Assembly: GCA_001600175.1 (NCBI GenBank)
Contig: BCJC01000001.1
Location: 1,978,877 to 2,026,732, forward strand
Direction: 5' to 3'
Source: Erythrobasidium yunnanense
Lineage: Eukaryota > Basidiomycota > Cystobasidiomycetes > Erythrobasidiales > Erythrobasidiaceae
Length of the DNA stretch: 47,856 nt
This document shows, piece by piece, positions 2,777-24,233 of the stretch. Both the position numbers and the translations under genes were made by a program. Below the pieces are notes generated by a model. That model searched no databases, was not told the DNA's origin, and saw nothing but the letters and a program-made list of their open reading frames with translations. Each line of letters begins with the position of its first letter. Position 1 is the stretch's first letter.

Positions 2777-2905
2777 GTATCAGTCAGTCTCTCGGCATTG
2801 ACTCCTGACTTCTGTGCCTACTGACCTTGAAGCTGATGGTTCTGCTTGCCCGTCTAAAGTCCTCGTTTACCTCTATCGTTGCAGTCGGCGACTCCGAACC
2901 TCACT

Positions 2906-5900
2906 ATGCAGAATCAAGCACGCCTGCTTCAAGCTCAAGGTCGCTTGCTCGATACTACGTTGCTCAAGCGCTACTATAAGCGAGATGGAACGCATCGAAA
3001 CCTGAATGGATATGCAGAACTTCTGGCGACTCCATGTACGGCTATTCGCGAGATGGTTTTGGACATGCCTCTGCACTTGATGTTCCCTGGCAAGGACTCC
3101 ATGGACTTCGTTCCCTTTCCTTTAGCACGAAGAGCTACCGAGAATGCGAGTGCTATCTCCGACTGGCCAGAATTCGTACTGCGACATAATGCCTGCATTA
3201 TCAACGAGGCATACGTCAGCCTAGAGAAGCAGTGCATAGATGCTCTGGAATGGCACTGCCGTCAGTCTGGTCCAAGTCGTCTCCCTGATACTTCGGTCGA
3301 GAGATTGGCCAGTATGCCTGCCGTCCGATGGATACGGGTTGATCGCGCTCGAGGACCTGAACCGGAACCAGCTTCGGTCGTGACGAATGACAGCCTGTCT
3401 TCTTCCGAGATTTGGCTTCGTTGCGAGTTCAAATTTGACCAGCATGCCATCCAGAGCGCTTGGAATCGCACGATGACTCCTCATACGGTCTTGATGCTCT
3501 TCTTTTGCGACAAGGAGCCTAAGCGGCATTACGTATTGCTAGCCTATACTGTCCCAAGCGCGCAGGAAACTGCCACCAGTACAGGACCAGTCGCAATCGA
3601 GAACGATCTTCTGCAAAACGTAAATCGGTCTATCTCGGTCAGAATATCTCCAACTTACTATCGCATGATCTGCAAGAAAGGAGGATCCATTGAAAGAGGC
3701 TCATTCGACTACCTTGACGCCGTCACCAGCGAGACCGATGTTATCACGATGATGGACACAATGGGCGTATGTGGCTCGACAATGCATGCTATCAGATTAG
3801 ATGGAGTGTTGATGCAAGAGTATTCAATGTCGTCGTTGATGGCAATGCCCCTGAACAAGGGCGTTGCTCTGATGGCGCCGGAGAAGCAGGCATGGAGCTT
3901 GAACTGGGACTCCTCCCTGTCCGTGGACGCTGCCGATGCCATCTTTGATGACTTTGGAAATGTCATTCGTCGGTACATTCAGTATCCGCTTGCGCCGCAG
4001 CAGCAGCGATATTGTCTTACCTGGATTCTTCATCTCTGGAAAATTACGCTCGGCGAGACCAAGACTCCCTTTACCATGGGGGCTCTCGCTGGACCTCCCG
4101 GAACCGGCAAGACAGCTACCATCATGACTGCTCTCCTCCTCTCTCGCTTACCTGATGTCCTGCGCAAGACATTCACTCTCGTTTCTCTACATTCTGGACA
4201 GCCTATTGCAGAGGATCAAGTAGCTGGTCTGGTCGAGCGCGTGCTGGCTCTGCGTATCGTATATACAGCTCCTACAAATCAAGCTGTAGACACTGGAACT
4301 ACAATGCTATCGCAAATCGTCGAATATTGTGCTCGTTCGGAGCCTACAATCTCTGTCACGCTCCGTGTCGTGCGCAACTGCGACTTTGAGAAGATTGCAG
4401 ACAGGCCCGATGTGCTTCCGCTGCATAGCCGCCTTCAAGGTGCCTCTCGCTTGAAGGAGCAGCTCTACGAAGAAGAAGATAAAATCAACGCAAGCTTCCG
4501 ATCGCACTATACGAACGAGGCGTGGAGAAGGCATGACAAGGATCGAGCAAGAATGGACTGGATTGTGCGTTATCAGCGCGTTTGGCATCGCAAAGACCCT
4601 ATTTCCGCGCAAGCAGAAAGGGAGTGGGACCGTACGATCGACCGCAGGTTTCCTGTTCTTACTGAAGACGAAAGAGAGAATCTTAACAGGCGGCTGAATT
4701 CGCTGCGGAGCGATGTGCGCAAGCTTCGGGACTTTCAGCGCGACCCTCGCGGCCATCCGCTTGTTTTCAGGCTGGCTCAGCAGTGCGATGGATTCGAGGG
4801 CGTCATCCAAGATAATCCTGCCAATGTATGCTGCTTTACCGCTGGCTATGTCAATCCCTATCACAACAGACCTTCGCCGATACATCCCGGTATCACCCTT
4901 AGCCCATGCACTGGGTCCGTAGTCATACTGGACGAAGCGAGTCAATGCAGCTTCCCTCATCTCTTGGTCCTCGTCAAAGAAGCTTCTTCGCTAGTGATGT
5001 GTGGTGACACCGCGCAATTGGGTGCTGTACTAAAAGGTCCTATGCATGGCAATATGGATTTGAAGCAGCCCTTGATGGCTAGGATGGTCGAAAGCACGAT
5101 TCCACTTACTCTATGCTGGAGGCTGCCTGTCGAGATGACTCGCTTCTTGAGTGAGCGGGTTTATTCCGAAGCTGGGCTATACTCGCAGACTGGACAGAAC
5201 ATCATTCGATCCTCCCCTCTTCACAACCACAAGCTCTTTCCTCCTACTGTCATTATCGACATCAGAGACTCGATCGCCTACCGACCTGCAGGTTCTACCT
5301 CGAAAATAAACGACGAAGAAGCTAGAGCGGTACATGTCTATCTGAACATGTTCTCGAATACCATGCACTGCTATCATCAAGATCCCATTAAAGCTGCGCT
5401 GGTCTCTCCGTTTACTGCACAGGCAGGTATATTGCAGGCAATAGCAGATGATTATGCCGGCGATCCGATCTTTGCTTCAATCACTGCGGGGACCATTGAG
5501 AGTATACAGGGTGTCACTACGGACCTTTGCATATGTTCAGCAACGATGGCAGGATCGCCCGAGTCTTCCCGGGTGAAAGCAGACTTTCTGACAGATGAGC
5601 GCTTAAATGTGGCAATTTCAAGAGCCAAGACTCATTGTGTCATGGTATGCGATGTCGAAGCACTGCAGCGCGGCTTAGCCGGGCAGCCCGATCACCTCAT
5701 ACACGCCTTCCTCGCCCACTTCCCTATCATCCAACTCGATCGACGCTGGGACGACATGGCTCTGGACACCTTCAAGGCAGCTACACGTCGAAATACAGCA
5801 GCTGCGATGTTGGCGGTCGACATCATCACACCCTGTACAGCTCCGTATTCACCTTCACAGAGCAAGCTACGAGATCCAGGCGAGCCTTACGATAAGGAGC

Positions 5901-6025
5901 AGCTCAGAAATACGTTGGAACAGGCGATGCAGATGTTTTCGGACAATGTGAGCTTCTCGAATTGTGTCCATTACTTTCGAACGTCCACTGACGATTCTAG
6001 TCAGCTTGATCGGATGGCAGGATGA
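2906..6025 (+). CDS. UPF1-like superfamily 1 RNA/DNA helicase
   Basis: A single uninterrupted frame of about 1039 residues from the ATG at 2906, striking in an intron-rich region. The C-terminal half has the ordered SF1B motifs: Walker A GPPGTGKT near residue 396, Ia APTNQAVD, Walker B ILDEASQ near 674, III GDTAQLGAV, a WRLP motif, V TIESIQG, and VI NVAISRAK near 901. A charged insertion separates motifs Ia and II, as in UPF1/SEN1/ZNFX1-type proteins. Family members unwind nucleic acid using ATP in RNA decay, termination or silencing. The N-terminal 390 residues match no domain I recognise and show no cysteine cluster. A better start could lie in an upstream exon, since an acceptor-like TTGCAG directly precedes the frame. 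The helicase call is firm; the cellular role is unknown. Confidence 0.9.
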   Translation: MQNQARLLQAQGRLLDTTLLKRYYKRDGTHRNLNGYAELLATPCTAIREMVLDMPLHLMFPGKDSMDFVPFPLARRATENASAISDWPEFVLRHNACIINEAYVSLEKQCIDALEWHCRQSGPSRLPDTSVERLASMPAVRWIRVDRARGPEPEPASVVTNDSLSSSEIWLRCEFKFDQHAIQSAWNRTMTPHTVLMLFFCDKEPKRHYVLLAYTVPSAQETATSTGPVAIENDLLQNVNRSISVRISPTYYRMICKKGGSIERGSFDYLDAVTSETDVITMMDTMGVCGSTMHAIRLDGVLMQEYSMSSLMAMPLNKGVALMAPEKQAWSLNWDSSLSVDAADAIFDDFGNVIRRYIQYPLAPQQQRYCLTWILHLWKITLGETKTPFTMGALAGPPGTGKTATIMTALLLSRLPDVLRKTFTLVSLHSGQPIAEDQVAGLVERVLALRIVYTAPTNQAVDTGTTMLSQIVEYCARSEPTISVTLRVVRNCDFEKIADRPDVLPLHSRLQGASRLKEQLYEEEDKINASFRSHYTNEAWRRHDKDRARMDWIVRYQRVWHRKDPISAQAEREWDRTIDRRFPVLTEDERENLNRRLNSLRSDVRKLRDFQRDPRGHPLVFRLAQQCDGFEGVIQDNPANVCCFTAGYVNPYHNRPSPIHPGITLSPCTGSVVILDEASQCSFPHLLVLVKEASSLVMCGDTAQLGAVLKGPMHGNMDLKQPLMARMVESTIPLTLCWRLPVEMTRFLSERVYSEAGLYSQTGQNIIRSSPLHNHKLFPPTVIIDIRDSIAYRPAGSTSKINDEEARAVHVYLNMFSNTMHCYHQDPIKAALVSPFTAQAGILQAIADDYAGDPIFASITAGTIESIQGVTTDLCICSATMAGSPESSRVKADFLTDERLNVAISRAKTHCVMVCDVEALQRGLAGQPDHLIHAFLAHFPIIQLDRRWDDMALDTFKAATRRNTAAAMLAVDIITPCTAPYSPSQSKLRDPGEPYDKEQLRNTLEQAMQMFSDNVSFSNCVHYFRTSTDDSSQLDRMAG

Positions 6026-7041
6026 ACACGGCTAATCAACTCAAGACACTGAAGATCCGTACGACTCGTAGGTTACGGCTCTTCCAGAGCGCAAGTCCAG
6101 CGGCTGAGTCTTGGAATTGAGTGTCGAGTCCAGGCTAACATCACCCGCTGCCGTATCACAAGCTATTGCGTGCCGAGCATAGTATACCTATGTAAGGTGG
6201 GCCTTGTGCTCGCATACCTTTTCCTTATGTTCACACTGGGTCCTAATGTTGCAGCCTCTCCACCAGACAAGAGCGATACGACGGCATCAGCAGCAGAGTC
6301 GATCCTCTTCGAACCTTACCTATCAGAAATGCTCATTCAGACCTATCTCAATCGTCTGCTTACATACGACTACAATCGCCTGCTTCCTATCTCAATCCCC
6401 TGCCAGCGCCCTATCTGGTGGGTCCGCCAACGCTGAGCGGCTCGAAACTTGCCTGAGATGCAGCTCCCAACCAATCATCTCTTTACCTTCACAACATGAA
6501 CCGGATTCGTGTGCTCGGGAGAAAGGATGCATAGGATCACGCAGTAGAAGAAGTGGCAGCCAAAGAAGATACCCTAAACTCTGTACAATATGGATGGCAA
6601 ATGGCTTTCGTATAATAGCGGAACAGGCTAGACCAGAGTACTGTACCATAGCGTGCCTTTATTTTCTTTGATACAATTGATTATGCAAGTTACTCGTCAG
6701 GCTGGAAGAATTCGTACCGATGCCGAGTAAATAGGCATGGGGAAGAAGCTGTGAGTATCAGGTATACCTGTTTTCCGTTACGATTCGATGGCTGCTTCTT
6801 TTTGCCAAATGTCCTTGTAGAGATGCGCTGATCAGGTCGAATCCAATGAAGTCTTCGGCGAAAGTGGTAGCATAACACCAATGCAAGCTACTGGCGGGCT
6901 TAAGAGCTAATACGGACAACCACATCGCGCGAGCTGACAACATTCCGGATATATCGAATACTGCGATCCTCCTGTACCGATCCTGTCTGTCTCCTGCTCA
7001 TCATCCAGCAGGCAACAGCCTTTGAGCCTTCAGTACTATGC
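6026..7041. other. About 1 kb without a supported gene
   Basis: Nothing convincing. A plus-strand frame at 6170-6436 begins with a hydrophobic stretch resembling a signal peptide, but it overlaps a longer frame (6204-6671) of equally poor quality. Neither has splice signals or a recognisable domain. Confidence 0.4.
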
Positions 7042-7598
7042 TCACTCCTGCATCTCGTCATCGTCTTGCCCGAGTGCGCCCTCTAAGCTGGCGTTGTCCC
7101 AGCTTCCATTTGCTCCTGCTGCTTTAGCCTCGTCCTCGACAAGCGGCATCTCTGTATCAGAGTCTCTTGACATAGCCTCGTTGAAGCGAATCTGCTCAGG
7201 GTTCAGCCAAGCTGGAGGATAATTCTTCCACTGGCTGTCGACGGGCTCGATGCGAATGCTGGGATCTACGTCGTCCCATTGCGAGTCTGCTTCTTGCTTG
7301 GACCTGATCCGTTCGGCCTCATAAGCTTCAATGTCTTTCTTGGGCCAAGCGCTTTGGCTTTCGCAAGCTCCCCATGAATCGTCGTTGTCTGGGACGGGTT
7401 GTGGGAAGGTGTGCATAGATTCCATGCCATTGATGATAGCCATCATGTCGGTATCTGCTATCTCCTCCTTGTGCTGCGGAGTGTCACTGGAGGATGCACT
7501 GTTCATGGGAATGTTGCTCTGCGAGTCTCGAGTCAGCAGAGCATTCCTAGGGGATACGAAGAAAGAAGAAGATGGCAAATGCTTACAGAGCTGTTCAT
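7042..7598 (-). CDS. Acidic protein of unknown function, two exons
   Basis: Not recognised. The model starts at ATG 7598 with a four-codon first exon (7587-7598, MNSS). A 68-nt intron follows (7519-7586, GTAAGC...CTCGCAG with a CTGACT branch point), then exon 7042-7518. The product is 162 residues, rich in Asp, Glu, Ser and Trp, with repeated short W-D and D-S-W patterns and no cysteine motif, signal peptide or membrane segment. The frame also runs open upstream of 7598 but without an ATG, and the tiny first exon has excellent splice signals. Most likely a disordered cytoplasmic or nuclear protein. Confidence 0.5.
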
Positions 7599-8249
7599 GA
7601 TGTCTGCTTGGGCTTATGATGATGGCTTCTGGGTTCGCCCGCAGAAGGCAATTCTCGAGGCCGATAGTTGGTAGGAAGACAAGACTACTTCCCTTCAGGA
7701 CGTGACTTCCAGACACCTTCCAGTACCTCTATTATACACACATCGACTGACGACGCACGCGCGACGGTACTACGTCTGCATCTTCCAGGCGCGTGTGAGA
7801 CACGCGCCTTCGTTGGCCTTCTCGGACTACAAGAGCGAGAAGAACGCAGAATAATCTAGAAAGCTAAGCACGCTTTTGAATGCTGCAAAGTTTGCGTACC
7901 GGCTAGCTTGGCACGCCCGCTAGGACCACATGTTTAAGTATATCAAAGGCTTTCCGAGACCATAGTACGGGTAGATAGGTGTCTTTAGATCTCGAGCGTA
8001 CTACGCGAAGTCCATATACCACGAGTCTATTGCTGGTAGATCGGTGGGAAGGTCGAAATCGCGGCCATTTGGTCCGAATTCGCTCTCAACATTATCGTCG
8101 CGCTCTTATACTTGACGAGTCTGTACTAGGCCACTGGTTTGCCAGGCGGCGCATCCGATGTCGTGGGTCTCCGAACTGCGCTGACATTCAGTCAATCAGG
8201 AGCAATGCTTATCATACAAGGTCATGTCAGTACGCGTCGATAATATCGG
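7599..8249. other. Intergenic, no supported gene
   Basis: It lies between the start of the acidic-protein gene and the 3' end of the DOT1-type gene, both on the minus strand, so it holds the promoter of the former and the terminator of the latter. A GC-rich inverted sequence, GGCGCGTGTGAGACACGCGCC, spans about 7788-7808 and could form a hairpin. No coding signal was recognised. Confidence 0.45.
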
Positions 8250-9370
8250 CTATACTCTATTACAACCTATGCATTTACAGGCTACAGACTCACATGAGCT
8301 ATCGCTTGAAGCGGCCAAGATTTCCGTTTGATAGAAGAAAGGTCTGCTAGACCAAGAGAAGAGGAAGGGAGACTGTATAGAAGCATGGTGTTTACCAATC
8401 ACTTTCCTGCAATTGGCCAAAAGGTGCAAAGGGTCATGAGGTTGTCGAACGTTCGACCTCTTTTGATGACAGCCAGTGACCGGCAAGCAAGTGAGGATCT
8501 TGCATCCAGGGCTTCCATTCTCACAGATTGTCTTGATCAAGAATTGGCGGAGCGTCGCGTCAAACTTTTCATCGACGATGAGGACGATGGTGGCCTTCTG
8601 GACCAGGGACGCAAGCTCTTTCTGCTTTGGCAGATCATACAGATCTCCCTCTCTCAGAGACATCTTCCCAATTTTGCGCTTGTCTGCTCTGGCATAACGA
8701 CTGACTTCTGCCAGCATGTCTCGTCCTGCCTCGACCAGATCGCTTCGAAGCTCGATGCCGTCGGCCTGGCATCCGAACAGCAAGGATACTGTAGCCAAGG
8801 TGTTTCCAACGCCTGCTCCGAGGTCTAGAAAGCGGTCGTCGGAACCAGCTTCGAGTGAAAGCAGAATCTCCGCCAGTCCGCCAAAAGATACAAAGCCATA
8901 CGTCTGATCTCCTACCGGAGCAACATACAGGCGTCTGAGATTGACCTTGCTATTCCATGCAGCATCCAGAATGGCCAAGCCAGACGCGAAGGGATCATGA
9001 TGAGAGCTCGAAGATGAAGGGATGGATGAGGATGCTAGAGCGGGTGGGGCGAGAGCTATATATGTTGTTAGCCAGGAGAAGGAATCGTCACTGGACATTC
9101 CAGCTCACCACTCGAGCTTCGGGCCAACTTGTTTCCTGCACTCGCAACGCGTCTCTTGGCTCGCACGGCCTCCAGGTCGTCTAGGCAGGCTTGTCGCTGA
9201 TCAGGAGTTAAGTCGCCATCATGCTTATACAAGAGGTGGTTTGCCTTGTCGCCAGCATAGTGTTCCGCTCGCTTGTGACACAGCTTGCAGAAAAGCTTCT
9301 TGTGCTTTCGTCCTCTCTGAGGTGTCTGGAGCTCGAAGAAGTCTTCTATAGTGTAGTTGATTTGGAGCAT
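8250..9370 (-). CDS. BED zinc finger fused to a DOT1-type methyltransferase domain
   Basis: Two exons, 9109-9370 and 8250-9055, joined across a 53-nt intron (GTGAGC, CTAAC branch, ATATAG) with matching phase, giving about 355 residues. Residues 8-80 form a BED finger with spacing C-x2-C-x13-H-x4-H (CKLC...H...H). From about residue 130 follows a DOT1-like fold: YGF near 140, SAM-binding DLGAGVGN near 165, a GIEL acidic-loop motif, a GDL strand and the typical C-terminal SWSSRPFFYQTEI. DOT1 enzymes methylate histone H3 Lys79 on nucleosomes. Two hallmark motifs are changed: YGE reads YGF, and the NNFAF loop reads VDEKF. Activity or substrate may therefore differ, or be lost. The start MLQINY is supported by the diverged copy at 44564, which begins the same way. 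It is divergent from the SET gene. Confidence 0.8.
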
Positions 9371-10478: not shown

Positions 10479-11145
10479 CTTTCACCTCCTTCCCTTTCGT
10501 CTACGCTGTATCGAAAGCGCCTGGCCTTCCTGACTTCCCACCGACTTGCAAGTCTGTGACCTTTGTTTGCAGTACCCTATAGTGGACGTTGTGCTTACAG
10601 TCGACGTTTTCATCGATGTCTACTTGCAAAATATGATACTCCTTCGTCGTGACGCCCGTTCCTGTCTGCCTACCTCATGGGAAAGGTAAGATGCCCACAG
10701 GGAAATCAGGATTGAGTTCAAGTCACATAGTCGTCGGACCCTAACAGAATGATCTGTACCTTGAAGACTCGCACGCCAAGCGCTCCGAGGGCGCAAATAA
10801 AGACCAATCGTGCCGGAAGATCAGGCGCGATCGAGGGCTATATCCAAGGCAATCGCGATGCACCGATATCGGTTGCTGTAGTGTATTCATACTCTGTATA
10901 ACGCTGTACGATTGTGCGCAGGTGCGATGCAATCATGGGGAGTAGCCAGGCTCTGCTGCTACAACTTGCGCTGACTACATCGCCGTAAAGACGCATCAAG
11001 CCCATGGGCATTTAAGTAATATAATTCAGCTCGTTGTGATCGGTAAAAGTTATGCGACTCTGCGTGCGTCCACAGAGCAACCGACGCATCAAAAAGAAAA
11101 GAAACTGCGAGGCAATTGCTCCCAAGCTTGTTGCCGCCTGGAACT
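10479..11145. other. Intergenic, no supported gene
   Basis: Between the SET gene and the aromatic cluster. A minus-strand frame of 180 codons (10959-11501) runs over the enol-lactonase promoter and start codon and has biased, repetitive composition; I take it as chance. Otherwise nothing is seen. Confidence 0.45.
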
Positions 11146-11169
11146 CGGAGGTCGGAAGTCGGGCAACGG
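11146..11169 (+). promoter_or_regulatory. Four CGG triplets at 7-bp period, upstream of enol-lactonase
   Basis: CGG occurs at 11146, 11153, 11160 and 11167, with four-base spacers AGGT, AAGT and GCAA. It lies about 320 bp upstream of the enol-lactone hydrolase start. CGG is the half-site of fungal Zn2Cys6 regulators. Similar arrays lie at 15722, 16132 and 20530 in the same cluster, and the core CGGAGGTCGGA is shared with two of them. Confidence 0.65.
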
Positions 11170-11490
11170 GCTCCAGGAAGGGTCACATGCTGCAATGTGA
11201 GAACGAGGCCTGGAAGTCGACTAGGGTCATGCAGGTGGATGAGTGGACCGCGAGATTGATCTAGTCTCCGTCCTGAGCTGCCATTATAGCGATCCGGCCT
11301 CCAGGCAGTCTTCGGGCTGGAAGAGAGTCGCATCCCGTGCTCATCTCTCGTAAGAGCAGCGGGAGACGGACGAGGGGCACTGCTGCGTAGCACAAGCTTG
11401 CAGAGCTCGTTCTTGGTAGGCCACGCGCTTGTCGCTCTCGACCACCCGTTTTTCTGAGCCGCATAATCCAACCCGGTTCGCAAGGTCACA

Positions 11491-12547
11491 ATGCTCGACA
11501 TGATGGATGTGGGCCATAATCAGAACGACTCCAACAACCTCACATCGCACGTAGTAGAGCTCGCGACATCCGGAAGAAAGGTTCATTACCTCAAGGCCAC
11601 TTTCGGACAGGGAAGCGTCGTGCCTGTGATCGCCCTGCACGGGCTCGGCGGGTATGTTTCTTCACTCCGTCAAAGAGGCCATCGCCATTCCAGCACGATG
11701 CGCAAGATGCTAAGCTGACTGTCTTGATGCCTCTGCGCTCGCGGCTGCCATACGTGGTTTTCCGGAATGACAGGTCATCCGCATACTGGCTTTCTTCTAT
11801 CAAAGCTGCAGCATTGGAGCATAGCCGAACTGTACTTGCACTCGACTGGGACGGCCATGGCCAAACTGCCTTCTCCGGACGGGATGATCTCTCGATGGAA
11901 GACTTGGTTTCCGATCTCCTGGACTTCTTGCAGACTTTGGGCATCCAGAAAGTCATCCTGCTGGCGCATTCCATGTCAGCCGTGGGTGCCATCGCGTGCT
12001 GGTCGCTGAGTAGGGCCTTAGCTGAATTTTCCGTAAGCAGATGGTTTCGACCATTTTTGCGGAGCGCTTTCCGGAGCGCGTAATGCTGCTCATATTGCTC
12101 AATCCTGTTCGCAATTTGTCTAGAGCGGTCAGAGATGGATTGCTGCAACGAGTGGCTCTTGCCAAGAAGGGGACAGAGGGAATGGCGACCATAGCCGAGG
12201 CCATAGCAACATCCGCGGTCTCAGTATATACAGGTTCCAGCAACCCAGCAGCCGTGCAAAGAATACGAAAAATGGTGCGCAATACTGGAGCTCGAGGATA
12301 CGCAGCTGCCGCTATAGCATTGCAACAGTCTCAAACCCTGGACGTAAGCACTGTAACATGTGACACCGTTCTGATAGGCGGGCAGGAAGATTACCTTGCT
12401 AGCAGCGACCTGGTTCGGGCTTGGGCGGCAGAGCTGCCACCAGAAAGCACGGGTGTGCATATCTTGGAGGATGTGGGTCACTGGGCGGCTGTTGAAGCGC
12501 CCGCGCGCGTTGGCAAGCTTCTTCGCACGGCTCTGGATCACCGGTGA
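11491..12547 (+). CDS. Alpha/beta hydrolase, probable 3-oxoadipate enol-lactone hydrolase
   Basis: Three exons: 11491-11651, 11774-11981 and 12041-12547, in phase, about 291 residues. Introns start GTATGT and GTGGGT. The protein has the fold's landmarks in order: ALHGLGGSSAYW (oxyanion loop), the LALDWDGHGQT strand, nucleophile elbow LAHSMSA (Ser), FAERFPERV after it, GGQEDY (acid region) and VGHWAAVEAP (His). This is the layout of 3-oxoadipate enol-lactonase and close relatives, which hydrolyse the enol-lactone to 3-oxoadipate. Substrate is inferred from the neighbours: it is followed after 66 bp by the carboxymuconate cyclase on the same strand. Another alpha/beta hydrolase activity cannot be excluded. 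The four-CGG array at 11146 lies in its promoter. Confidence 0.8.
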
Positions 12548-12613
12548 GAATCTGACGTTCAGCCTTATCGGGTGGAAGATGGTTGCTGACAACGTCCAAG
12601 TCCGTTCTTCCTG

Positions 12614-13974
12614 ATGGTCGCCGCTTTCCGCAGTCCTCAGATCTTCACGCTATCCTTCTGTCCCCTCACGTCTGAGACCGCTCTGCTGGCCGTCAATGAT
12701 GCTGAATGTGGTCATTCTTGGCTAGATCTTTCTGACAATAAAACCACGCTTTATGCCACAGACTGGTCGACACCTCCCTCTATATCCTCTTTCTGCATCA
12801 TCCCTCCATCCTCGGCGACGCCATTTCCAACCATCGCTCAACGATCTCAAGCCCCTAGTGAACACTTATCCGGCTACGTTTGTAGCAATGACAAAGCGGT
12901 GTACTCTGCTTGTGGTCCGCAGGTGGATGTCTTCCTTCTTGATCGCAAGTTGCAGTCTCTGCAATCACGCGAGGCTGCACAGAGTTTGTCGCTTGTCGGG
13001 AAATCCGGAGTCCGTGCTTGTAATGGCGAGGGTGATTTTGGAGGCTTAAGGCATGGGGGCCATGTGAGCATGTTCTGCTGCTAGCAAAGGCATAGATCAC
13101 TGACGGCCTGTGCAATCACGCAGAGTGCCGACCTCTCGCCAGATGGCACCAGATTATACGTGGCAGACATGTATGCTACTCCAAGCCTGTTCGAGTGATG
13201 CGGGCGCTGAAGCTCATAATTATGCGCAGTGGACGCAACTGTATATGGCTATACGAGGTTGACCCTGAATCAGGTCTACTCACCCTCTTATCTCAAAACA
13301 TAGCCAAACGGCTAAATGATGGACCGCGACATGTTTGGCCCCATCCAAATGGTCGGATTGTATATTCCCTGCAAGAGCATTCATCTGTAGGTGTTTGCCG
13401 CAGAACAGCTTGCCACTTGATCTCATTCCGCGATTGGCAGTATGTTGATGTGCTGGCGCTATCTGAGGATGGAAAAATCTTGGAATGGATGCAAGGTGTC
13501 AATATTCTCCCGGAAGGAACACCCTGTGATAAATTCTGGGCGGATGGTATGGTGCGCCCCAGCTGCCGTGGCCTATCCTGACTGACCGACCTGGACTTGC
13601 CACCTATTGATAACATAGAGGTCCGGCTTTCGCCAAATTGCGATACACTCTTCGCATCAACTAGAGGTCTGCAAGCGGACACAAAAGGCTACGTGGCAGC
13701 ATGGCCTCTTCTCCCATCGGGCCATCTATCCTCTGTCACCTACGAACATGCTCATCGCTTCCAAACGCTTACCTCAGGCGGCTGGGCAAACGCGATTGCT
13801 ATATGTCCAGACTACGGCCCACACGGAGAAACGTTCTTGACATTGACAGACAGCGAGGAAGGCTTCGTGCAGATCTTGTCTCATGATAGAGTGTCAGGTT
13901 TCAGAGTGCTAAGCCATACGCCGCTTAGCATATCTGCGTTACGAATCCAAGCCAGCGTGGCCGTGTGGCTATAG
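12614..13974 (+). CDS. Carboxy-cis,cis-muconate cyclase (seven-bladed propeller lactonase)
   Basis: Five exons in phase: 12614-13063, 13124-13170, 13230-13386, 13441-13546 and 13619-13974, giving 371 residues. Propeller-blade signatures recur: SADLSPDGTRLYVADIGRN, IWLYEVDPESGLL, DGPRHVWPHPNGRIVYSL, VRLSPNCDTLFAS, and the C-terminal VAVWL typical of fungal carboxymuconate cyclases. Known members convert 3-carboxy-cis,cis-muconate to the lactone in the fungal 3-oxoadipate pathway. They act in the cytosol, and no signal peptide is seen here. It follows the enol-lactonase by 66 bp, and no CGG array was found in that short gap, so it may depend on the upstream promoter or on elements inside the neighbour. 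The relation to 6-phosphogluconolactonase-like propellers makes the exact substrate an inference. Confidence 0.85.
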
Positions 13975-14457
13975 AATCTGTTCCATCGTTGTAGATCAAG
14001 GCAGAACCGGCAGAAGCGCTTCTTAGTGTGCGAGCGAGACTCTTGCTACGCTGCTACTTTGCTTGTCCTTCGCCCATTGACATAAGCAATTTACCCACCC
14101 TGACATGCTGCAACTCGCCAGCAATCCAGCCCGCCATCCTGGACAGTCACCTTAGGTAATCGACTGTGAGGGTCGAGTAGCTAGAGATGCAGAAGTGCAT
14201 GACACGCAGCACGGGTCGCGAGGGGTCAACGAAGTGGCTCGATGTACAGTGGCCACACGCAAGAGTGTGGAAGGTTGAGCCGAGAACCTCACATTGGATA
14301 CTGAGCGCTTGTAACGTCAGGTCAGTTGATAGCGTCAAATCTGGCCGTTCTTGCAGACAGCGGCAGCTTTGATTACAACAATGATGTACACACAAGCTTC
14401 CCAAAGACAATGTCGTGCCCTGTTGCCTTCCTCTACTACCGCCTACTCGTGTTGCAG
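13975..14457. other. Convergent intergenic region
   Basis: Between the 3' ends of the cyclase (plus) and the transporter (minus). It presumably holds both terminators. No gene recognised. Confidence 0.5.
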
Positions 14458-15593
14458 TCACTGCTGCTTCTTCTCCTTCTTGAGATAGAGGCTAGACAAA
14501 TCGAAGATTGGAAGATTGATGTGAGAGCCAACGGAAGCCATTGTGAGATGGATTGTCAGCCATATGGCAGCCTGGATCGGTCGATGCAAACTTTCAGTAC
14601 TTGCGATACTCTCGCTAATAAGAGAGAAAGGGGGAAAACTAAACGCACCAACGATGAGACAATGCCGAAACCTCCGCCAACATGCTGCTCGATATTGGAC
14701 CTAGCTAGATTTCCGCTGCCGATATGGTATTGACTGGCCGAAACGAGACCAAAGAAGAACGTGAGACCGAGGAGAAGGATGACATTGAGGACGTTCGTTC
14801 GGCAAGCCGCTATTGTGAAAATACCGGACATGATGCAGAAGGGCTGAAAACCAGTACTTTGTGTCAGCCGAAGACATCGAGATACGTCAGAGCATGCATG
14901 GCTCAGCCTTACAATCAAGAGGATCGAAATGGCCCGTACAAAAGGAGCGGCTTGTACAGCCGCGCCAATCGCTGCGATGCCAGTGTCCTGACCATTGCTC
15001 AGAAGTCCTCCGACAGTTGCGTAGATGTCGCTCAGTGGGTTGTACAAATACCACAGTAAACCAGAAAAGCCACCTGTTACAGACGAGCACCGCGCGGGAT
15101 GAAAGTGAGGAGAAAGCGTTGTAAAAGCCTGCTTAGCAACCTCCGAGCGAGTTCTGGGTAGCAAGTTACCGTATGTGAAGAAGAGATAGCAAGGAAAGGT
15201 CAAGCCTTGTACCCAGGAGAAGATGGCTGCACTGATGAGCAGGACCTGCTCGTGCGGCATTTCAGTCAGTATTTAGTACAGCTTTCTGAAGTCGGAAGTA
15301 TTGCCTACAAATCCTACAAAGATGAAGCCAGGAGCGAGCACAAACAGCGAAGCGGCATTGGTGCCTCCCAGCTCGCACATCGCCAGACTCCAGGGCAGAA
15401 TGACTAAGACCAGAGCAATGGTGCCGATGCCAACTGGATTGGCGAAGGTTCCTGTGACTGGCGCAGGCGGTCGAGCATCCTTAGGAGTGAGGAAGAGGCT
15501 CTCGTATTCCTTGGCGGAAAGGGTAATCATGGTCGTGGTTGGTTTTCCTCCTTCCAGGTCATCGCGCACATGGTCCGCAGGACTGTGAGACAT
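14458..15593 (-). CDS. GPR1/FUN34/YaaH family membrane transporter
   Basis: Five exons on the minus strand, all phases consistent: 15309-15593, 15170-15245, 14913-15073, 14649-14843 and 14458-14571, 276 residues. The family entry motif appears as FANPVGIG, followed by about six hydrophobic segments (GTIALVLVILPWSLAMCELG, VLLISAAIFSWVQGLTFP, then FCIMSGIFTIAACRTNVLNV and later ones) and a short charged tail ending KKEKKQQ. Members move acetate, ammonium or related small monocarboxylates. Length matches the family (about 250-300). The N-terminal cytosolic tail of some 50 residues is usual in fungi. Divergent from the esterase gene, it sits inside the aromatic cluster, so import or export of an aromatic acid or acetate is plausible but unproven. 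A three-CGG array lies about 130 bp upstream. Confidence 0.85.
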
Positions 15594-15721
15594 TCTGACT
15601 GATTCGTCAATAGAGATGGAGACTGGATTCAGACAGGAAAGCTGCGATGGACAACTTCGTGCTCAAGGCTATATCGCCCGGTATACGCCACCGCAACCTC
15701 CCTCCCGGCACCCGCATGGCT

Positions 15722-15738
15722 CCGCCTTCCGACCTCCG
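15722..15738 (-). promoter_or_regulatory. Three CGG triplets at 7-bp period, upstream of the transporter
   Basis: On the plus strand CCG lies at 15722, 15729 and 15736. Read on the minus strand these are CGG with spacers AGGT and AAGG. The array sits 129-145 bp upstream of the transporter start and shares CGGAGGTCGGA with the arrays at 11146 and 20530. Confidence 0.65.
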
Positions 15739-16131
15739 CAACTGCCCCACTGGCCCATGTACCGACTAGCTCGGCAGGCTGTTTCAAGGCAAGTGTGGAA
15801 GATCCGGAGAGCCCAGGCCAGCCGTCCTTGAATGTACTACGCGCGGACTGCTATATCGGAATTTTTGCAAAGTGCAGCTCATCCGTCTGATCTCACAGCG
15901 AGCTTGGGTGCCTGAATCAATCTGTCTTGAACCTCTAGAAGCCAGTCTGAATATGTTTTTTGACTGCTGTAGACAATCTCAGGATTGCGGAAACATGCAC
16001 CAAGAGCCGGATACAGCGGATGGCGCATGCGCTGCAGAAGAGGACTTCTCGCAGAGAGTCCCGTCGCTAGAGCTGCCTCGCGTAGCCGGTCTCTTCAGGC
16101 CAGCTTCTTGCCCCTGGCACATGACCTTGAG

Positions 16132-16155
16132 CGGAACTCGGGATGCGGGAGTCGG
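16132..16155 (+). promoter_or_regulatory. Four CGG triplets at 7-bp period, upstream of the esterase
   Basis: CGG occurs at 16132, 16139, 16146 and 16153 with spacers AACT, GATG and GAGT, about 180 bp upstream of the esterase ATG. The spacers differ from the other arrays while the CGG period is exact, pointing to the triplets themselves as the contacted bases. Confidence 0.65.
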
Positions 16156-16335
16156 AGGATAGGTTGTCTCCGCAACGAAGGGCATTCTTCGCAATACCAT
16201 GGGAAGCATGCGATAGCGGAATCAGCCGCTTGATGGCCGAGGAAACACGCTGCGGTACCATCTAGTTGGACCTCCAGCTAATCCTGACCGTCCTGCCTCA
16301 TCCAACCGTTGTCTTGCGAAATACACGCGTTCACG

Positions 16336-17878
16336 ATGTCCAGCGAGACCACCGGCACTCTCTCGTACACTCCAGAGTGGAACGATCTTGTCAAGAACGT
16401 CTTTGGCGGAAACGCTCCTCTGTTCCTCGGAACTGGAGAGCAACTGAAAGGAGCTGCCGATGGCTTCACTGCAGCCTTTATCACGCCGCTACTGTCGAAG
16501 TTCAGCGAGACTGTCGACACAAGCGAAGGTCACTACAAAGCTGGTGACGGAAGCTCGCAACGATGGCGCAAATATCAGCCTCGTCGGAACCTCTACAAGG
16601 ACGCGGTCGTGGTTTTCTTTCATGGAGGAGGTGAGATGAATCGCGGTCGTCAGTAGCCACCATTCTACATTACATGCTGAAAAGTCTGGTACTGTGATAC
16701 TCTTGGCCTGGAACAGGTTAATGTTTGCGGCAAGTTAATTAGGAGCGAGCTGCGCCCTGCGTGAATTTCAGGAAGACCGAAGTAGCTGAGTCTGCGGGCT
16801 ATGCAGGCTCCGTTGACCTGGATGCATACGATGCCTCGACCATCGCTGAAGCCGGCGTTACGTGGTAAGCTTCTTCTCCCTTGTTGTTACAGTGAAGAGC
16901 ACGAAACGCTTAGGCCAGTTTTTGCCGCCTCTTCCGCTGGTGATTGCATGCATTCGTAGCATAAGTTTCGACTATCGGCTAGCACCTGTGAATGACCATA
17001 CACACGAACTGTATCTGCCCGTCTGATCGCTCAACGATACTCAAGGAACACGCTTTTCCCGCTGCACACGCTGACGCGTGGGCCGCTTATCAATGGGTAC
17101 GTCTTCTACGTTGGTTGGGATTTGGTCGAGATCAGGACTGACCTTCTCGAGTCGTCTCGCAGGCTAAGTCGGAGTACAAGGATTGCAGGATCGTACTAGC
17201 TGGCTCCTCCGCCGGGGCAACACTCGCAGCTTCCGTAGCAGCCCAAGCTCGTGATGCGAAAGACGCGCAGGTCATAGGTCAACTCTTGATGTGCCCTCCT
17301 TTGGCGCCGCCCGGAAAGCTTCCTGGAGTCGGCCTGTCGTGAGTCCAACTCTGCCACCATAACACCCCAAGATCATGGCATGCTTACTTTATATTGCGTT
17401 GCGCAGCGCCTCCTATAAGCGAGCCGAAGACGCCCACATCGTGAATCGAGCCTGCATGGAGTATTTCAACAAGCTCTACAATTTCATCTACCGATCTCTT
17501 GTCCATGGTAACCCTAGCTGACTACGGTCTGGGCCGTCTAGTCCGCAAGGTTTGGAGAACTCTCGCTTGTTCCCCCTTCTGGCCAAAAGTTTCGCAGGTC
17601 TACCCAAGACAGCCCTGCTGGCACCGGAGCATGACCCGAATATCGACGAGAACGGAGCATACGCTGCCGAGTTGCAGAAGGAAGCTATTGGGTCCGCTTT
17701 CACGTGGATTACGGCCTCCCTCACGCACACTGGTAAGCATGAAATTGCTTCTCCCAGGCTTTGCTTGTCCCACAGCTTACACAGCTGTTCCTTCAGGCTT
17801 GCCAACTTCGCCGGCCAGGCAGGTCAGGCCCACGCAAAACGGGTGGGCGAGCAGACAGAATGGTTGTTGGGCGCCTAG
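16336..17878 (+). CDS. Alpha/beta-hydrolase fold-3 (hormone-sensitive-lipase-type) esterase
   Basis: A multi-exon gene starting at ATG 16336. Successive exons read VVVFFHGG with a G completed across the intron (HGGG oxyanion motif), GSVDLDAYDASTIAEAGVT, ISFDYRLAP, EHAFPAAHADAWAAYQW, LAGSSAGATLA (GxSxG nucleophile), LLMCPPLAPPG and LLAPEHDPN (acid region). The catalytic His and the last exon are less certain: the final donor GTAAGC at about 17732 and the best acceptors differ in phase, so the C-terminus (GEQTEWLLGA) may need correction. The family hydrolyses carboxylic esters of short acyl or aromatic substrates. No signal peptide, so probably cytosolic. Lying between transporter and dioxygenase, with a four-CGG array upstream, it likely supplies aromatic substrate by ester cleavage. 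About seven introns of 40-190 nt. Confidence 0.8.
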
Positions 17879-18909
17879 GTGCGAGGCTGTGCATCGCTTT
17901 AGCACTTCCATACATGCCGCCAGCACGAACTCTTGTACAAATTTACACAATGTACCTATCTACCTATCTATCTACTGAATCAAACGACTTTCAATGCACA
18001 TCTTCACTTGCACGAGTGCGGCCAGTTTATCTTCTGCGCTGTCCTGCATTGTTCACCACGGGCCATCAAGGCCGGCTTCCCTTCCTCTTAATCCAAAGGC
18101 AATTAGCGCTCAGACCCTCTGTGCACTGTGACGAGTATGTTCTAATACCTCTCCTGATGGGCTGTCCCAATGCTCTCACTGCTCGTAGCGGTCCTGACTT
18201 CCCGCCTGCACGGCCATAGGCATGTCTATCTCGACAATCCCGGATGGTATTCAGAAGTTCATCGCATCCTTCTATTCTGCGAGTGATGTCGGACCGACTG
18301 GTCACCACAAATGCCTCCTTCACTTTCTTCCCTCAGCATCCTCATAATGGGTCCGACTCGGTACGATAGCCACGAAGGGATTCGACGTTTCCGCGAGACG
18401 GCATGGGACAAGGTTGCTACGCGCAAGCACGTACGGTGCATCATGATGCAGGCCCATAAGTCATGCTTCATGGGACTGTCGACTTTGGCTCCAAAGACGG
18501 CAGTCAGAAGAAAGGCGTCCAATGGGCCGCAAGAATGGTTTAGCAAGGTGGCAAGAAGGGACCATACAGACTTCTCTACTACCAGGTCTATGTTGTCCGT
18601 TACACAGCTGGCCTGAACTGTCTCGAAAATGTTAACGAATTATCCCCACCCAGCGATAAGCCTGCATGTGCGCCTCAAGGCATGATAGCATGCCACTGGC
18701 ATGCCATGGTGCGGTGTATACTGTGAGTGTGTTCCAGTCTGTACTCTCAGAGATCTGCTATGGGCGAGTCGCTACAGTAGGCAAGAAAGGAACGGTCATG
18801 ATCACGGTATGCCAGACTCCACTAATATAAAAGGTTCGCCATACGTCTCCAGTGCCTCTTCTGTAATACAGCTAGCATTGCAAGGAACCCGAGTTTGTCT
18901 GCAGCCTGA
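17879..18909. other. Convergent intergenic region of about 1 kb
   Basis: Between the 3' ends of the esterase (plus) and dioxygenase (minus). Short open frames on both strands (for example 18259-18616) overlap each other and have no splice signals or domains. A (CTAT)n-like run, ACCTATCTACCTATCTATCT, lies near 17952. Nothing else seen. Confidence 0.45.
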
Positions 18910-20306
18910 CTACTGACCAGATACCTCAACCGAGGAGCCCAACAACGGCCCAGTGATTTCGACTTCGTTCTTTTCTGCTGCTTTAGCCAGGTAAAAGTTC
19001 TGCTCCAGCTCATAGACCACCTTGTCCTGTAGCTCGCTCTCAACAGCCCGGTAGTCCTTGCTGACTGGCTTGAAGTCGATTACGAGCTTGTCCTTGACGG
19101 CAAAAACACTGTCGTCGGTCAAATCTGGTTATGTATAGAACCGGTAACGCGAGATCATCAGTCACAACACTCGGGTAATGAAAACACGAAGCTGACTCAC
19201 ACTTGCTGTCCTTGTCAAATAGCTGAGTTACCAGGGTCTTGTGGCCTTCTGCCTCAATCCAGAACTGCCGGTGCGTCAAGCACACGTCAGCAATGGCTTC
19301 TGTGGAAGGTGTCGCGCATTGGTCTTACGTGTAGATGCGCTGGTCGGAATGGGTGACGGTCCATGAGGTTGAGGAGATGGCCAGCTTGGTCTTAATGAGT
19401 AATGGAGGGGTATCAGCTGAGGACAAGAGCAAAACAGGGAGTAACGTGAGCTACTCACGGTCGAACGGAATAGGATAAGGAGTTGGGCGCAGGCAAACTG
19501 TGGCATAATTGCCCTGTGAGTCTGTGGTGAAGCGGCCTCGACAATGATAGTCTGGCTTCTCTGGGGACTGAGCGTCGTAACGACCATCCGGAGCGTCGTG
19601 CCAGACGTCTACGAGAGCGTTCTGCAGCGGTTTACCGTCAAAGCCGTAGACAGTGCCGAAAAGGTGACAGTAGGGCGCATCTTCCGGGACTCGTAGGATA
19701 GTGGTTCCGTTGGGCTGCACAGGCACTCCGCTTCGGTAGAAGGGTCCTAGGATGGCTGAATAGGTGGGATCGCTGAGATTTGCAGGCGTTCCAGCATCTT
19801 TGGTCTGTCCAGCGGCGCGTTGAGCTCTGGTCTGGTCCAGAGTATCTGGCGCGTAGAGTAAATTTAGCTTGTTATGGAGACGGGGGCGGTGGCCTCCCCG
19901 AGTTTTCCTTACCGACAAGTGATTCGATGCCGAAGATGTCTGTGACGAGCACTACCTCGTTACGCTGCTCATTGGAGACCTTGCCTGCCTGGACCATCAG
20001 GTTGCAAGCTGACATCCACTCCTCGACGGATACGTCCGCCTCGATAAGAAATTCATGAATCTTCCGAATCATGATTGGAAATGCCTGCAGACAGTTTTCG
20101 TGTAAGGAGGTCTTCTTTGGTAAGCTAGAGCCCCCGCCTGTGGGAGCGGGCTCGCAACGTACCTGCTTAACACGCGGGCTGGCTTTGGCACCGATGGCAT
20201 TGATTCTGGAAACTACCAATTAGAGGCTTGGAATTATAGTAAACATAGCCCAAGCATCCGCTCACACTGTTTCGGTGTAAGTGCTGAAGTCAAATGGGGT
20301 GCCCAT
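18910..20306 (-). CDS. Intradiol ring-cleavage dioxygenase (catechol / hydroxyquinol 1,2-dioxygenase)
   Basis: A minus-strand gene of about seven exons from ATG 20306 (MGTPFDFSTYTETV) to the stop at 18910. N-terminal helical linker domain: SPRVKQ, FPIMIRKIHEFLIEADVS, EWMSACN. Catalytic domain: YSAILGPFYR, ALVDVWHDAPDGRYD, CRGRFTTDSQGNY, RHPFRPAHLHFW, LVTQLFDKDSKY, DDSVFAVKDKL. The non-haem Fe(III) ligands expected in the family (two Tyr, two His) are present in GRYD and the RPAHLH region. The enzyme opens the ring between two hydroxyls to give a cis,cis-muconate or maleylacetate. The DVWHDAPDGRYDAQ stretch looks nearer to the hydroxyquinol type than to bacterial catechol enzymes, but the substrate cannot be fixed by eye. 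It shares a 437-bp divergent promoter with the phenol hydroxylase. Confidence 0.9.
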
Positions 20307-20529
20307 GTCAGTAAGTGCGAGGAGGAGGCAGGGAAGAGGTTGTCGGCTATGATTGATGGATGTGAGAGGTTGCGTAGGCTGGCGAGTAGTGAAGCGAGAA
20401 GCGCACGGAGTCAAGATGTCTATACGCAGAAGCTTTCGCGCCTATATGTTAGCACAATGTGGCAATGGTGCAGTTTATTTATCCGCTCAGGAGGCTCGTC
20501 GAGCTGTCTCTTCCCCGCCCCCTTTCCTT

Positions 20530-20546
20530 CCGACCTCCGACCTCCG
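20530..20546 (-). promoter_or_regulatory. Three CGG triplets at 7-bp period in the dioxygenase/hydroxylase promoter
   Basis: CCG lies at 20530, 20537 and 20544 on the plus strand, that is CGG on the minus strand with both spacers AGGT. This is the most regular array in the window. It lies midway in the 20307-20743 divergent promoter, about 225 bp from the dioxygenase start and 200 bp from the hydroxylase start, so one site could control both genes. Confidence 0.7.

Positions 20547-20743: not shown

Positions 20744-24233
<3,490 letters not shown>

Follow-up and report, generated by a model that had tools for sequence, protein, structure and literature searches.

In Erythrobasidium yunnanense, six neighbouring genes on contig C1, here called A to F, look from their predicted enzyme families like a cluster for the conversion of phenol to 3-oxoadipate, and upstream of five of the six (A, C, D, E and F) there are four arrays in which CGG triplets recur at exact steps of 7 bp. 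Genes and arrays lie within C1:1978877-2026732 of a 20.9-Mb genome of 10 contigs; this stretch of 47,856 nucleotides is called the window, and positions without a contig prefix are counted from its first letter. The arrays are real, and their excess at this locus is statistically strong. They likely constitute an operator private to this cluster, which would be read by a single activator of the Zn2Cys6 type that is encoded elsewhere and switches on the phenol-to-3-oxoadipate genes. A shared operator, and hence one regulator, is the most economical reading, because the arrays are locally concentrated, are in exact phase, keep that phase while their spacers differ, and stand before all but one of the cluster genes.

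All four arrays were found where the original prediction had placed them. Array 1 (11146..11169, plus strand) has four CGG at 11146/53/60/67 and points toward gene A, its units being CGGAGGT-CGGAAGT-CGGGCAA-CGG. Array 2 (15722..15738, minus strand) consists of three CCG on the plus strand, that is CGG on the minus strand, at 15722/29/36, points toward gene C and reads CGGAGGT-CGGAAGG-CGG in the CGG orientation. Array 3 (16132..16155, plus strand) has four CGG at 16132/39/46/53 with divergent spacers (CGGAACT-CGGGATG-CGGGAGT-CGG) and points toward gene D, and array 4 (20530..20546, minus strand) again has three CCG on the plus strand (CGG on the minus strand), at 20530/37/44, with the units CGGAGGT-CGGAGGT-CGG and the divergent genes E and F on either side. 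The spacer is thus 4 bp in all 10 inter-triplet steps. When the 14 units of the arrays are compared, the last triplets being included with the bases after them, a purine follows the triplet in every case (A in 10, G in 4), G stands at position 6 of the unit, the third of the spacer, in 9, T stands at position 7 in 7, and a T directly precedes the CGG in 8 of the 14. A core common to three arrays had been predicted, and indeed CGGAGGTCGGA occurs in arrays 1 and 2 and, in two copies, in array 4, but is absent from array 3. The latter had been thought to keep the triplets only, which understates it, as it also fits the purine-rich form CGGRRGTCGGRRG.

The arrays are found at short distances from predicted start codons, which rest on sequence-based gene models: 322-345 bp for array 1 and gene A, 129-145 bp for array 2 and gene C, 181-204 bp for array 3 and gene D, and 224-240 bp and 198-214 bp for array 4 and genes E and F, respectively. 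Arrays 2 and 3 are located between the divergent genes C and D, each closer to the gene at which it points, and array 4 is oriented toward E although it is 26 bp closer to F, so that for three of the four arrays the nearer gene is the one pointed at. Single CGGN4CGG pairs exist in addition in the promoter of gene A (11360..11369, plus strand) and directly adjoining array 2 (15705..15714, minus strand). Together with the latter pair, array 2 forms a series of five CCG (15705-15738) with steps of 7, 10, 7 and 7 bp from left to right, and the gap between the array and the pair corresponds to about one helical turn. No further CGG triple with N4 spacing occurs elsewhere in the window. As to array 1, an antisense open frame of 180 codons (10959-11501, minus strand) covers it and overlaps the start of gene A; this frame has no Pfam match and its codon usage gave no call as coding or non-coding, which has to be kept in mind as a caveat for this array.

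When CGG triples in 14 kb around the cluster are counted at all gaps from 0 to 20, there are six at gap 4, one at gap 6 and none at any other gap. When 9.8 kb of the region was modelled by an order-3 Markov null, the mean was 0.07 independent arrays, and four were reached in none of 2000 runs. To allow for the free choice of the pattern, all 32 trinucleotide classes were combined with 21 gaps, and among these 672 tests CGG at gap 4 ranks first (nominal 7.9e-7), with nothing as extreme in any of 150 simulated regions; rank 2 is held by GGA at gap 4 (1.8e-4), which is seen in arrays 1, 2 and 4. In the three stretches of cluster promoter (1.77 kb in total), CGGN4CGG pairs, which overlap and are hence not independent, number 12, where the remainder of the window would predict 0.36, and this arrangement is the strongest of the 63 CGG pair arrangements that were tested there. 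Pair gaps of 11 and 18 are likewise high in these promoters because they are multiples of the 7-bp step.

In the genome as a whole, the quadruple CGG-N4 pattern has three matches, two of which are in the cluster, and the triple pattern has 56 matches (6 in the cluster) that merge to 53 independent arrays (4 in the cluster). Random placement of 53 arrays put four inside 9.4 kb in only 25 of 200,000 trials, the motif being taken as chosen in the original prediction, and no other 10-kb stretch of the genome contains more than two. A genome-wide frequency no higher than expectation had been named in the original prediction as an outcome that would refute it, and for the genome as a whole this outcome was obtained, with 56 triple N4 matches versus 113 for the reversed pattern. 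The counts for N5 (66 versus 126, with no N5 triple in the window) and N3 (157 versus 310) are of the same kind, CGGAGGTCGGA has 10 genome matches (4 in the cluster) versus 10 for its reversed control, and CGGRRGTCGGRRG has 11 (5 in the cluster) versus 12. The N4 spacing is therefore not favoured over controls genome-wide, and the claim survives only for this locus.

The operator also looks private to the cluster when the surroundings of the other matches are considered. For this, 30 open frames near non-cluster arrays or CGGAGGTCGGA sites were chosen from a longer list and scanned with Pfam; four of the 50 non-cluster triple matches (three on C8, one on C9) were outside this survey of neighbour genes. 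There was no Pfam match in 18 of the 30 frames, and the 12 matched frames include an FAD_binding_3 protein (L042), an Abhydrolase_3/Peptidase_S9 protein (L063) and an enoyl-CoA hydratase (L023). Only L042 and L063 belong to families that are also represented in the cluster, Abhydrolase_3 being the family of gene D, and the matched frames other than L042, L063 and L023 had no link to the phenol/catechol pathway. Two isolated CGGAGGTCGGA sites may be mentioned here: one at C1:4896079 (L039) beside a frame that we take to be short-chain-dehydrogenase-like, where the single frame that was scanned had no Pfam match, and one at C5:1605378 beside or within the FAD_binding_3 gene of L042, which we take to be COQ6-like. 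Frames of at least 150 codons contain 26 of 46 non-cluster matches and likewise arrays 1 and 4 (186 and 152 codons); such overlap was dropped as a test, as codon scores fail to separate real exons from antisense frames.

Zn2Cys6 proteins typically bind two CGG triplets, which may be inverted, direct or everted repeats (PMC5559640), and the arrays have what characterises a direct-repeat element of this class, namely CGG in the same orientation, a fixed spacing and an enrichment at promoters of linked genes. The closest known element in geometry is that of Tac1 from Candida albicans, which is CGGN4CGG (PMC10370356, PMC8211738, PMC12248020) and occurs in the promoters of Tac1-controlled genes (PMC10370356, PMC8211738), and on which the Tac1 DNA-binding domain produced two bands, first that of a monomer and then that of a dimer (PMC10370356). 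Like the arrays, it is a direct CGG repeat with a 4-bp spacer and a 7-bp step, but as printed (PMC10370356) it has two CGG, an ATAT spacer and an AT-rich tail, whereas the arrays have three to four triplets, purine-led spacers and no AT-rich tail, and the Tac1 targets are drug-efflux genes while the arrays sit at genes of aromatic catabolism. TerR of Aspergillus terreus uses CGGN5CGG in most promoters of the terrein cluster, with the site TCGGHHWYHCGG; one monomer occupies the first half-site, a further one is recruited at the second, and a T before the CGG helps (PMC4360782). Both cases have direct CGG repeats at the majority of the promoters of a single gene cluster, but TerR differs by its 5-bp spacer, which none of the four arrays has, by its use of pairs (three separate motifs at terA) and by serving a secondary-metabolite cluster.

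In function, the nearest lead is Rss1 of Ustilago maydis, a Zn2Cys6 activator that responds to salicylate and anthranilate, has among its targets a muconate cycloisomerase acting downstream of catechol and is said to have inverted and direct CGG repeats in its target promoters, the motif having been left open by the authors (PMC5082525). The gene rss1 and its target srg1 are arranged divergently, whereas no such regulator match was found in this window. Zn2Cys6 control has further been described for the catechol pathway of C. albicans (Zcf25; PMC12625712) and for the 3-oxoadipate and gentisate clusters of C. parapsilosis (Otf1/Gtf1), where the sites GGRN10WCC and GGAN7TCC are inverted (PMC8929692). 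QA-1F and PDRE patterns have no match in the cluster promoters, and the FarA, AmyR and Hap1 types have 1, 2 and 1 versus 0.46, 0.72 and 0.77 expected, respectively. Each named element that was tested (Tac1, TerR, Otf1/Gtf1) thus fails on at least one feature, and it is most likely that the arrays act as a zinc-cluster direct-repeat operator. Direct-repeat CGG sites as such are already known; what is unusual is that every regulatory promoter of a single catabolic cluster has three to four half-sites in phase. In the open-licence literature, no precedent from an aromatic cluster came up for CGGN4CGG, CGG-N4-CGG, CGGNNNNCGG, CGGAGGTCGG, CCGNNNNCCG or 'three CGG' with zinc cluster in these spellings.

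Several points weigh against one cluster-private operator with one Zn2Cys6 activator. The invariance of the triplets across the units was built into the search. The polarity of the arrays is only weak evidence, because between divergent genes both orientations face a gene. An array had been predicted for every promoter of the cluster, which holds for A, C, D, E and F, but gene B follows 66 bp behind gene A and has no array of its own. TerR has been reported not to recognise a 4-bp spacer (PMC4360782), and the inverted Otf1/Gtf1 patterns GGRN10WCC and GGAN7TCC have no match in the 1.77 kb of cluster promoter, where 2.77 and 0.41 would be expected; none of the aromatic regulator sites that were met therefore matches the arrays. 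The clusters of Zcf25 and Otf1/Gtf1 carry their own regulator genes, unlike this window, in which a six-frame search, which can miss intron-split domains, found no Zn2Cys6 or Fungal_trans match. The idea of one regulator for the whole cluster is thus backed by the concentration and phase of the arrays and by their position, but not by a regulator gene nearby. A wider aromatic regulon, finally, is not supported. The original prediction had proposed a genome scan to see whether such arrays concentrate at aromatic promoters, but when all 56 triple matches were compared with 11 other pathway-type loci (five intradiol dioxygenases, four Phe_hydrox_dim, two CoA-transferases), the nearest triple array was about 15 kb away, the closest pair being C3:792238 and C3:807461. 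In the DNA upstream of the predicted starts of six of these 11 loci, namely the two CoA-transferases and all of the intradiol dioxygenases but the one at C7:1712160, a single CGGN4CGG pair is found at one (L078).

If the arrays do work as one shared operator, a trans-acting Zn2Cys6 activator would recognise successive CGG half-sites arranged as direct repeats, with spacers of 4 bp that begin with a purine (CGGRRGT-like), and would turn on the phenol-to-3-oxoadipate genes together, the inducer probably being a phenolic or muconate-type compound. Each array would then comprise two or three CGGN4CGG dimer sites that overlap, and this may result in multivalent, high-affinity and possibly cooperative binding.

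A distinct way of using the same DNA, which we consider possible but clearly less likely, is that each array is a track on which three to four Zn2Cys6 subunits assemble cooperatively as a head-to-tail chain around the helix, the number of triplets setting the response of each gene. Steps of 7 bp turn by about 240 degrees, and therefore every fourth half-site would face the same way. About as doubtful is the idea that the arrays are read not by Zn2Cys6 dimers but by another class of CGG-reading protein, such as C2H2, or by a chain of independent monomers. Three to four units are more than a dimer needs, monomeric binding has been reported for AlcR and is suspected for Zcf2, and the stepwise recruitment of TerR monomers would fit as well; pairs of CGG triplets are nevertheless the typical target of Zn2Cys6 proteins, and the genome has 27 PF00172 matches.

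Rather improbable is a purely mutational origin without function, either by slippage that duplicated a 7-bp unit in tandem or by the copying of a promoter fragment. Tandem Repeats Finder lists weak repeats of 7 bp for array 1 (score 32) and array 4 (score 36), and CGGAGGTCGGA is common to three arrays. Moreover, C5:17.9-18.8 kb, the second densest locus of the genome and, apart from the cluster, the sole one to have two arrays inside 10 kb, consists of tandem-repeat-rich DNA with perfect 7-mer copies; a retroviral-polymerase-type SH3-like domain is encoded by a frame close to this locus, which seems to differ in nature from the cluster arrays. Arrays 2 and 3, on the other hand, are not listed by Tandem Repeats Finder at a minimum score of 30, and therefore slippage cannot explain all four; the arrays also occur on both strands, and the spacers of array 3 vary from unit to unit while its triplets stay in phase. 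Triplets in phase with differing spacers are what selection on the triplets would leave, although this is not proof, the triplets having been the search key.

That CGG triplets clustered in these intergenic regions by chance and were noticed because patterns were being looked for is very improbable. CGG is slightly denser in the cluster (0.0281 per base) than across the window (0.0246), there is no genome-wide excess of triple arrays, and the pattern was chosen after the sequence had been seen, but the Markov runs, the simulations across all motif-gap tests and the random placements given above leave hardly any room for it. Least credible of all is a G-quadruplex or another DNA structure formed by the GG runs that recur at a fixed 7-bp step on the G-rich strand, as at gap 4 CGG leads with GGA far behind, AGG, TGG and GGG are outside the ten best tests, and most runs have just two G.

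With a cluster-private operator and a Zn2Cys6-type activator as the preferred reading, the activator would have to be sought elsewhere in the genome, which has 27 PF00172 and 42 Fungal_trans matches, counted exon-wise. On the contig of the cluster, no Fungal_trans match comes closer to the window than about 268 kb, and a triple array was found in none of 10 PF00172 loci (3 kb each, 10 of the 27 matches). At C5:998272-1003870, an intradiol dioxygenase (minus strand), an FAD_binding_3 monooxygenase (plus strand) and a regulator-like Fungal_trans match (minus strand) are within 6 kb of each other. This group is a candidate source of an aromatic regulator; CGGN4CGG is absent from the 1 kb upstream of the dioxygenase at that place (L079). 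At another dioxygenase, a CGG triple with 5-bp spacers as in TerR sites (C9:410546-410564) is located about 0.6 kb upstream of the intradiol dioxygenase match at C9:411154, but it is one of 66 in the genome and may be a chance occurrence.

According to one review (PMC12388069), only a few fungal regulators of aromatic catabolism have been identified, and Rss1 is the sole basidiomycete regulator of this kind that was met in the literature searched, with its motif left open (PMC5082525). A sharp operator that is private to one cluster in a 20.9-Mb genome is directly testable with one CGGAGGTCGGAGGTCGG probe, one pull-down and one reporter series. If chains of at least three subunits do form, this would be a wider rule than that of zinc-cluster proteins reading CGG pairs, and the array might possibly be used as an aromatic-inducible promoter element.

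To the left of the cluster (2858-9104), there are a frame with AAA_11/AAA_12 helicase domains, presumably Sen1-like, and a frame for a DOT1 histone methylation protein. These are probably the chromatin genes whose promoters had been said to have no such arrays, and in agreement with that there is no CGG N4 triple near either frame. The cluster itself begins with gene A (11491..12547, plus strand, approximate exon model), an alpha/beta hydrolase (PF00561, PF12697) that from its context is probably a 3-oxoadipate enol-lactonase. Gene B (12614..13974, plus strand, with a start at about 12614 and the stop read from the sequence) belongs to the 7-bladed lactonase family of the muconate-cycloisomerase type (PF10282), and its sole match among solved structures is 1jof, a carboxy-cis,cis-muconate cyclase (E 9.7e-06). 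Gene C (14556..15593, minus strand, approximate 3' end) is assigned to the Gpr1/Fun34/YaaH family of acetate-type transporters (PF01184), and gene D (16336..17978, plus strand, approximate exon model) to the alpha/beta hydrolase fold 3 family (PF07859). Gene E (18910..20306, minus strand, the 3' end taken from the sequence and approximate) is predicted to be an intradiol ring-cleavage dioxygenase of the catechol or hydroxyquinol type (PF04444, PF00775). Several of its top matches among solved structures are of the hydroxyquinol type and enzymes named catechol 1,2-dioxygenase rank lower, so that the structural matches favour hydroxyquinol-type and related enzymes, while the neighbouring genes suggest the catechol branch. 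Gene F (20744..24233, plus strand, approximate exon model) is predicted to be a phenol 2-monooxygenase (PF07976, PF01494), and its best match among solved structures is 1pn0, 'Phenol 2-monooxygenase' (E 8.2e-129), which we take to come from Trichosporon cutaneum, a basidiomycete yeast.

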